A DNA stretch of 33,853 nt from an uncultured Wenzhouxiangella sp. Its GTDB lineage: Bacteria; Pseudomonadota; Gammaproteobacteria; Xanthomonadales; Wenzhouxiangellaceae. The notes below the pieces were generated by a model. The model saw only the letters and a list, made by a program, of their open reading frames with translations. It was not told the DNA's origin and searched no databases. Where the stretch lies: positions 1-33,853 of the forward strand of contig CAJXNU010000006.1 in NCBI GenBank assembly GCA_913057255.1, given 5' to 3'. Below are positions 22,451 through 24,364 of this stretch, in pieces (positions within the stretch are counted from its first letter, which is position 1; each line of letters begins with the position of its first letter). A program made the position numbers and the translations under genes.

Positions 22451-22553
22451 AGAAACCTCTGTGTATCGGAACGGCCCAACAGACTCGCCCTCACTCGTCG
22501 TTTTTGGGCGCCACTATCCGTCAGACGCTTATCTTAACCACCTGAGTGTCAAG

Positions 22554-22586
22554 AAAAAGCCCCGACTGATCGTGCCAGCCGGGGCT
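22554..22586 (-). terminator. minus-strand intrinsic terminator with no annotated upstream gene
   Basis: Minus-strand RNA: AGCCCCGGCUG GCACGAU CAGUCGGGGCU then UUUUC (11 bp with one G.U). No U-run on the + side, so it acts on minus transcripts. Confidence 0.75.
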
Positions 22587-22596
22587 CTAAGGGATG

Positions 22597-22646
22597 CGTT
22601 CGGCTCAGCAGGAGGGAGTCAGAGGAGCCAAAAACTGGGCCGAACG
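22597..22646. repeat. 12-nt inverted repeat, possible RNA hairpin
   Basis: CGTTCGGCTCAG (22597-22608) / CTGGGCCGAACG (22635-22646), 11 of 12 complementary plus one U.G on the + strand; 26-nt loop. Confidence 0.65.
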
Positions 22647-22654
22647 AAAGCAGT

Positions 22655-22666
22655 ATCCTCGAGGAT
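22655..22666. repeat. 12-bp perfect palindrome ATCCTCGAGGAT
   Basis: Direct reading of 22655-22666. Confidence 0.7.
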
Positions 22667-22704
22667 GAGTGAAGTTTGGGTGAAGCAAATTGCCAAGAAA
22701 TGGC

Positions 22705-22733
22705 TTGGATTTTTAAAAATCATGTGGTATAGT
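22705..22733 (+). promoter_or_regulatory. sigma70-like promoter with extended -10
   Basis: TTGGAT (22705-22710), 17-nt spacer, TGG-TATAGT (-10 at 22728-22733); predicted start near 22740. Confidence 0.55.
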
Positions 22734-22739
22734 TACAAC

Positions 22740-22845
22740 CAATCTTGGCATCACGCTGACAGTTTTGGCAAGGTTGCAGGGCGCTAAGCGAGATACATCA
22801 CTCCGAAAACATTGCCCCTCCCGACCTTTGGGAGGGGTTTTTTTT
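22740..22845 (+). ncRNA. candidate small RNA of about 105 nt upstream of pgi
   Basis: Bounded by the promoter at 22705-22733 and the terminator at 22815-22845; no convincing protein within. Confidence 0.45.
22815..22845 (+). terminator. strong intrinsic terminator
   Basis: Perfect 8-bp stem CCCCTCCC / GGGAGGGG, 7-nt loop GACCTTT, followed by T8. Confidence 0.92.
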
Positions 22846-22924
22846 GCCCTCGATGCGCATTTTTAGGGGGCCAGCTGGATATGTTGCATAAAAACAACAA
22901 CTCAGATCAATCTGGGCAGTGACC

Positions 22925-24364
22925 ATGAACCCAACCATTCTCGAATTATTTGCCAAAGAGCCCAACAGATCACGCGATTTTCGCGTGTCTGAGGGCGACT
23001 GGTACTACGACTTCAGTCACTTGCCTCTCTCAATCCATGCCAAAGAGGCCTTGTTGAGCACGTTTCTCTCTCAACAGCCTGCCCAGGCCATCGATGCTTT
23101 GTTTGGCGGAGAGATGGTCAATGGCTCAGAGGCCCAGCCGGCGCTGCACGCTCGTCTCAGATCGACAGACGATGCCCAAGTTCAGCATCAAAAGTCACGC
23201 TTTTTGGCGGTGGCCGAGCGCCTCTACACCGGGCAGTCTGGGCTGACTGATTTGATCCACATCGGCATTGGTGGCTCGGATCTGGGTCCTCGCTTGGTGG
23301 CCGATGCCCTCGATGCGGGCCACTCCGCGGTCAACGTGCACTGGTTGGCCACGGCCGATGGGCGTCGATTGAAGCGCTTGATGAGCACCCTCAATCCAGA
23401 GACCACGGGCTTAGTGATCGCCTCCAAGTCTTTTTCTACTGAAGAGACGCTGGCCCAGGCGGAGCACTTGAAGACTTGGCTGGGCGAGCGATTTGCCAAT
23501 CAGGTCTGGGCGGCGACCGCCAATCCTGAGCGCGCACAGGCCTTTGGCGTGCCAGCAGAGCATGTGCTGAGCTTTCCTCATTGGACTGGCGGTCGCTTTT
23601 CGCTTTGGTCGTCGGTGGGTGTGAGTGCAGCAGCGGTCATTGGCACAGACGCGTTTCAAGCACTGCTCGATGGCGCACACGAGGCCGATCAACGCTACCA
23701 ACAAGCCCCGAATGCTTGGCATGACAGCCTCGCTGTTTGGATTGCCTTGAGCGTGGATCATTTGCGCCGAGGTTTGGATCTCACCACCTTGGGCGTGGTG
23801 TCGTATGAGCCCCGTTTGGCTTTGCTTGGTGATTATTGTCAGCAGCTCTTTATGGAAAGTCTCGGCAAGAGGGTGGATGTAGAAGACCAACCCATCTCAG
23901 CTCCCACGGTGCCATTGATCTTTGGGGGGCGGGGTACGGATCTGCAGCACTCCATCTTCCAAGCGCTCCATCAGGGCATGGACACCCACCCATTGCTCCT
24001 CGTGGGGGCTTTGCACGATCCCGAGGCGCTAGCTGACTGTGGGCACATTCAGATGGCTCATTTGTTGGCCCAGCGACAGGCATTTGCACAAGGTCGGGGA
24101 GACGGCGCGGCTTATCAACATATGCCGGGCAATCGACCCGTGGCCTTGTTGTTGACTGACCAATTGAGCGCGCAGCGACTGGGCTTTTTATTGGCCAGTC
24201 TGGAGCATGCCGTCTACAGCTTGTCGGTCTTGTGGGGCATCAATGCATTTGATCAGTGGGGTGTCGAGGAGGGTAAGCGTTTGGCCGGTCCGTTGCGAAA
24301 GCGTTTAGAGAGCCATGAGGCGGGGATCGCTGACCTACTCGACTGGGATCTCAACCACCATTAA
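22925..24364 (+). CDS. pgi: glucose-6-phosphate isomerase
   Basis: IGIGGSDLGPRLV, ASKSFSTEETL, GGRFSLWSSVG, MESLGKRV, FDQWGVEEGK; start ATG 22925 (or GTG 22919). Confidence 0.95.
   Translation: MNPTILELFAKEPNRSRDFRVSEGDWYYDFSHLPLSIHAKEALLSTFLSQQPAQAIDALFGGEMVNGSEAQPALHARLRSTDDAQVQHQKSRFLAVAERLYTGQSGLTDLIHIGIGGSDLGPRLVADALDAGHSAVNVHWLATADGRRLKRLMSTLNPETTGLVIASKSFSTEETLAQAEHLKTWLGERFANQVWAATANPERAQAFGVPAEHVLSFPHWTGGRFSLWSSVGVSAAAVIGTDAFQALLDGAHEADQRYQQAPNAWHDSLAVWIALSVDHLRRGLDLTTLGVVSYEPRLALLGDYCQQLFMESLGKRVDVEDQPISAPTVPLIFGGRGTDLQHSIFQALHQGMDTHPLLLVGALHDPEALADCGHIQMAHLLAQRQAFAQGRGDGAAYQHMPGNRPVALLLTDQLSAQRLGFLLASLEHAVYSLSVLWGINAFDQWGVEEGKRLAGPLRKRLESHEAGIADLLDWDLNHH

Follow-up and report, generated by a model that had tools for sequence, protein, structure and literature searches.

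In a 33,853-nt stretch of DNA from an uncultured Wenzhouxiangella sp. (the window), the region upstream of pgi carries a putative small RNA (sRNA) gene that, with its own promoter and terminator, is conserved across much of the Xanthomonadales/Lysobacterales. The existence of such a gene family, here called the pan-pgi sRNA, can be regarded as close to certain from comparative sequence analysis. What the RNA does must be argued from its architecture, and the account that we judge probable is that of an autonomous gene whose product acts in trans, probably with Hfq, by base pairing of a conserved core near the ribosome-binding sites of its targets.

Promoter, fold, and terminator of the predicted RNA

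Table 1. Features of the pan-pgi sRNA region, in window coordinates
Feature	Position	Strand	Details and basis
Promoter	22705..22733	+	-35 TTGGAT 22705-22710, 17-nt spacer, TATAGT 22728-22733; direct reading
Inverted repeat, imperfect (GTGGTA...TACAAC), overlapping the -10	22724..22739	.	Possible operator
Small RNA, about 106-107 nt	22740..22845	+	Predicted ends: 5' at about 22739-22741, 3' in the T run
5' stem-loop SL1	22740..22776	+	Folding; compensatory changes in 5/10 pairs (n = 51 sequences)
Core CAGGGCGC(TAAGCGAGA)TACATCACTCC, almost invariant, mainly unpaired	22777..22804	+	Alignments
Intrinsic terminator, hairpin of 8 GC-rich pairs followed by eight Ts	22815..22845	+	Direct reading; terminator scan; covariation
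pgi (glucose-6-phosphate isomerase)	22919..24364	+	ORF; downstream neighbor outside the sRNA unit
Second conserved structured RNA, divergent from the sRNA	about 22550-22648	-	Conservation, covariation

The hexamers named in the preliminary description, with their 17-nt spacing and extended -10, lie where that description placed them. TGTGG directly precedes TATAGT (extended -10 at 22723-22733), and the arrangement recurs in the family as the consensus TTGG(C/A)-N17-GTGGTAnnnT, drawn from 102 distinct promoters. A generic sigma-70 scan of the region did not detect this promoter because its -35 element is weak, matching at 3 of 6 positions; we nonetheless read it as a sigma-70-type extended -10 promoter that is proper to the predicted sRNA gene itself. 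The inverted repeat that overlaps the -10 is perfect (GTGGTA-N4-TACCAC) in many relatives and is extended to CTGTGGT-N6-ACCACAG in some Rhodanobacteraceae. At its actual spacing it is symmetric at means of 4.2 and 3.8 of 6 positions, compared with about 1 to 2.5 at most other spacings, and it is a possible candidate for an operator. Inverted repeats of another kind, resembling GCAACA-N4-TGTTGC, occur 5' of the -35 at four loci (L159, L160, L224, and L225) from families that do not have the GTGGTA promoter.

The segment from 22740 to 22846 has a folding energy of -37.4 kcal/mol (z = -3.0 relative to shuffled sequence). Its terminator, first noticed as an 8-bp GC hairpin followed by eight Ts, pairs CCCCTCCC (22815-22822) with GGGAGGGG (22830-22837) around a 7-nt loop, with the Ts at 22838-22845. 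A generic terminator scan also picked it up, with 11 pairs when G-U is included, and the hairpin covaries in relatives, where 6 of 10 pairs show compensatory changes and 99.6% of cells are paired. SL1 beats shuffled sequences in both forms of the RNA that are distinguished below (mean z, -2.3 and -1.9), and at three loci (L094, L131, and L135) the hairpin is retained despite a largely different sequence. When the two helices were scored together over 51 form-A sequences and 20 pairs, 91.6% of cells were paired, versus 85.3% after shuffling and 45 to 58% when slid, and double changes were found in 11 of the 20 pairs. The covariation score of 0.336, compared with 0.208 for shuffled and at most 0.122 for slid controls, was reached by none of 500 shuffles. 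One structural detail proposed earlier, internal pairing of GUUUU with AAAAC, did not survive the comparison, as it is lost in relatives that carry GACAT or similar in place of AAAAC. Coding potential was considered and rejected, neither start nor frame being conserved: no start codon is kept and the length of the core differs by single bases between homologues, so we take the RNA to be noncoding.

Distribution across genomes

The sRNA is present in single copy in its own genome and once per genome in nearly all carriers. Matches by blastn were obtained in 31 of 61 genomes, comprising its own and relatives, and 27 of 30 Wenzhouxiangella genomes, its own among them, have a homologue; the three without a match are incomplete (63 to 85%), and pgi was likewise not found in them. 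A covariance model built from 28 members (R1, alignment A1) located the sRNA in 99 of the order's 399 genomes; with a wider model (R2, alignment A3) the number was 127. A class-level sample of 369 genomes gave matches in only 7, its own genome among them. Six of these lie outside Wenzhouxiangella: one still falls within the order (Rhodanobacteraceae), another, from a different order (G403), contains a convincing homologue in the arrangement folK-panB-panC-[RNA]-panD-pgi, and the remainder are partial or weak candidates.

Besides Wenzhouxiangella, carriers recovered by a pattern scan include Tahibacter, Dokdonella, Chiayiivirga, Pseudomarimonas, and many Lysobacterales MAGs. Pattern matches in Amycolatopsis, an Acidobacteria MAG, and a few others came without the promoter and the neighborhood and were treated as chance. 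At pgi, the sRNA was not found in the sampled Xanthomonas-like genomes of family f2, presumably Xanthomonadaceae, nor in a further family (f9) or some Rhodanobacteraceae. Because the unit, the promoter arrangement, and the covarying structure are all conserved, a chance origin of the promoter and terminator is unlikely. Conservation of both elements in relatives, together with covariation, was what the preliminary description had asked of the region, and both were found.

An almost invariant core

Between the two hairpins, the core is made up of two blocks that hardly vary, connected by a short linker whose length differs among members. The blocks are CAGGGCGC and either TACATCACTCC (form A, in Wenzhouxiangellaceae and a second family) or AGGTAATCGTCACTCC (form B, in Rhodanobacteraceae and others), and within them CAGGG and TCACTCC show no variation among 40 sequences that represent about ten families. 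We presume that the core is a seed or a protein-binding region. As RNA, UCACUCC resembles an anti-Shine-Dalgarno sequence, and its complement, GGAGUGA, would be a plausible ribosome-binding sequence.

Long complements of the core were sought with 14-nt patterns allowing 1 mismatch in Wenzhouxiangella and with 16-nt patterns allowing 2 mismatches in Rhodanobacteraceae and relatives, and in neither group did a target recur near start codons. The patterns CGGAGTGATGTACC and CGGAGTGACGATTACC recur only at the sRNA genes themselves, and long antisense targets were rejected on these grounds. Other matches that were inspected are scattered, mostly within long reading frames, with no gene recurring. 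In the search with CGGAGTGACGATTACC, matches outnumbered the reversed-pattern control, a surplus that we attribute to a presumed coding bias. The lack of long conserved complements means that the core either uses short seeds or binds something else.

The second of these options describes an autonomous RNA that mainly binds a protein or small molecule, as a sponge or sensor, with the core serving as a binding site instead of an antisense element. The core, at about 28 nt in two almost invariant blocks, exceeds what a single seed needs, and the failure of its long complements to recur in genomes also speaks for binding of this kind. However, long invariant seeds are also found in multi-target sRNAs, UCACUCC is C rich in the manner of seeds aimed at Shine-Dalgarno sequences, and the RNA lacks GGA repeats such as those of CsrA/RsmA sponges. 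We consider a dedicated binding site unlikely and infer short-seed pairing for the core.

Gene neighborhood and independence from pgi

The spread of gene orders suggests that pcnB-folK-panB-panC-[sRNA]-panD-pgi is ancestral. Three kinds of upstream neighbor were found. In most families, the sRNA lies 75 to 250 nt behind panC or folK, where it might be a processed 3' end, and the whole element could then be merely the terminator of the upstream operon (the panC transcript) with a coincidental likeness to a promoter. In Wenzhouxiangella, this window included, the ancestral upstream genes are replaced by an ABC-transporter operon that is transcribed away from the sRNA, yet promoter, hairpin, core, and terminator are nonetheless retained, which makes derivation from a panC transcript very improbable.

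Downstream, panD is present in most Wenzhouxiangella genomes and gone from between the sRNA and pgi (22845-22919) here and in several relatives. The identity of pgi fits homologues and synteny, and its start, at GTG 22919 or ATG 22925, lies 74 to 80 nt past the terminator Ts, in agreement with the roughly 80 nt estimated at the outset. This proximity had led the preliminary description to offer an attenuated leader of pgi as an alternative to an sRNA. In a census of the next recognized downstream gene at 125 distinct loci, pgi (53 loci) or panD (50 loci) followed on the same strand at 103 (about 82%), as a cis-acting attenuator or riboswitch of pgi or panD-pgi would require. Its core would then be an aptamer and its terminator the expression platform, and aptamers too show invariant cores and covarying helices. 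Against such a leader stand the loci with other downstream neighbors. The next gene is leuS at 2 of the 125 loci and lies on the opposite strand at 5 others (queG at L161, L182, L194, and L229; murB at L224). Inspection of ten loci without a recognized neighbor added five more clear opposite-strand genes, identified by eye as an ATPase (L100, L112, L123, and L172) and a SEC-C-like protein (L159).

Promoter, core, and terminator are retained at these exceptions. A leader should always be upstream of, and co-directional with, the gene that it regulates, and because about ten loci with an opposite-strand next gene keep the whole unit, we rejected a pgi leader or attenuator. In addition, inspection by eye revealed no competing antiterminator, and Xanthomonas-like genomes, among others, have pgi homologues without the element. 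Taken with the frequent presence of panD in place of pgi, these observations leave any cis-acting leader of pgi or panD-pgi improbable. Promoter and terminator are conserved together and independently of flanking genes, and it is this autonomy, along with conservation and covariation, that upholds the original proposal of a plus-strand sRNA of about 105 nt. Because the RNA accompanies pantothenate and sugar-phosphate genes, an order-wide, free-standing RNA could also be imagined to sense a metabolite, or titrate a regulatory protein, tied to that metabolism, with the core as the binding site; we find this quite doubtful.

A second structured RNA on the minus strand

Divergent from the sRNA, about 60 to 80 nt from its promoter, lies a second conserved RNA with a TTCGG.../...CCGAA stem, a C-rich loop (CTCTGACTCCCTCC), and a terminator with a T run. 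Many Wenzhouxiangella genomes have it in the corresponding intergenic region, and in other Wenzhouxiangellaceae genera it is found between mnmG and an ABC-transporter gene (gene names assigned by eye). A covariance model (R3) matched in 27 of 399 genomes of the order, mostly Wenzhouxiangellaceae, and covariation in the helices gave a score of 0.424 versus 0.242, with 99.1% of cells paired. A search of Rfam gave no match for this RNA. At the loci examined, it precedes the ABC-transporter operon and has the same orientation, and it may be either an sRNA or a leader. Upstream of it on the minus strand, at about 22659-22690, is a conserved direct repeat, GTTCAC-N6-TTTCACC, with an 11-nt period and equivalents at L017, L018, L020, and L025. 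The repeat may resemble a PhoB/OmpR-type response-regulator box.

Proposed mechanism and significance

We propose that the extended -10 promoter drives synthesis of a noncoding RNA of about 107 nt, composed of a 5' hairpin, an open core, and a terminator with a U-tail. This RNA would act in trans, probably associated with Hfq, and its UCACUCC core would pair with target mRNAs near their ribosome-binding sites, reducing translation. A trans-acting sRNA best explains an element that is autonomous, noncoding, and structured, that combines an open invariant core with a U-tail, and that resides in genomes encoding Hfq (an hfq gene was present in all 16 genomes tested). U-tails of this kind are typical of Hfq-associated sRNAs. 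Action in trans appears highly likely from these features; antisense pairing of the core, as the means of that action, is a reasonable expectation held with less assurance.

Beyond Xanthomonas and closely related genera, the Xanthomonadales have few known sRNA families. An RNA that is kept in single copy and with a near-invariant core, in many families of the order and at one locus of another order, probably has a basic regulatory role. The alignments provide a ready seed for an Rfam family, and linkage to the pan and pgi genes, combined with clean exceptions, makes both the sRNA and the leader hypotheses directly testable.

Comparison with known RNAs

The first reading of the region did not recognize a known sRNA, and a scan against Rfam 15 agreed: at gathering threshold nothing matched in the window, nor did homologues of the element taken from many families give a match. 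The best matches below threshold (NsiR1, anti-hemB, and suhB/mmgR) scored 17 to 27 bits against thresholds of 39 to 49.5 and center on the terminator hairpin; the likeness consists of a GC-rich hairpin and a T run at the terminator, and the anti-hemB alignment covers essentially only the terminator. No description of the pan-pgi sRNA was found in the open-license literature.

In general design, the pan-pgi sRNA is closest to the trans-encoded, Hfq-dependent sRNAs of gammaproteobacteria such as Spot 42, with which it shares size, its own promoter, a 5' hairpin, an open seed-like region, a terminator with a long U-tail, a conserved neighborhood, and genomes that encode Hfq. It differs in its locus, which is pan-pgi and not polA, and its similarity falls below every Rfam threshold. 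Within the order, the obvious comparison is sX13, the most thoroughly studied sRNA of Xanthomonas. It is a conserved, order-specific sRNA of about 115 nt encoded downstream of polA, folds into three stable stem-loops whose loops are C rich, and has been reported only in Xanthomonadaceae (PMC3771888). Its C-rich motifs pair with G-rich sites near start codons, and Hfq is not needed (PMC3771888), a point that weighs against assuming Hfq dependence for an sRNA of this order. Both RNAs are order specific and conserved, similar in size, and alike in their variable flanks and in C-rich motifs that pair, or in the pan-pgi sRNA would pair, with targets. In contrast to sX13, the pan-pgi sRNA has one hairpin, an open core, and a terminator, and no copy was detected at pgi in the Xanthomonas-like genomes checked. 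Because locus and structure differ, the pan-pgi sRNA is not sX13, and these comparisons would place it as a previously uncatalogued family of a known kind.
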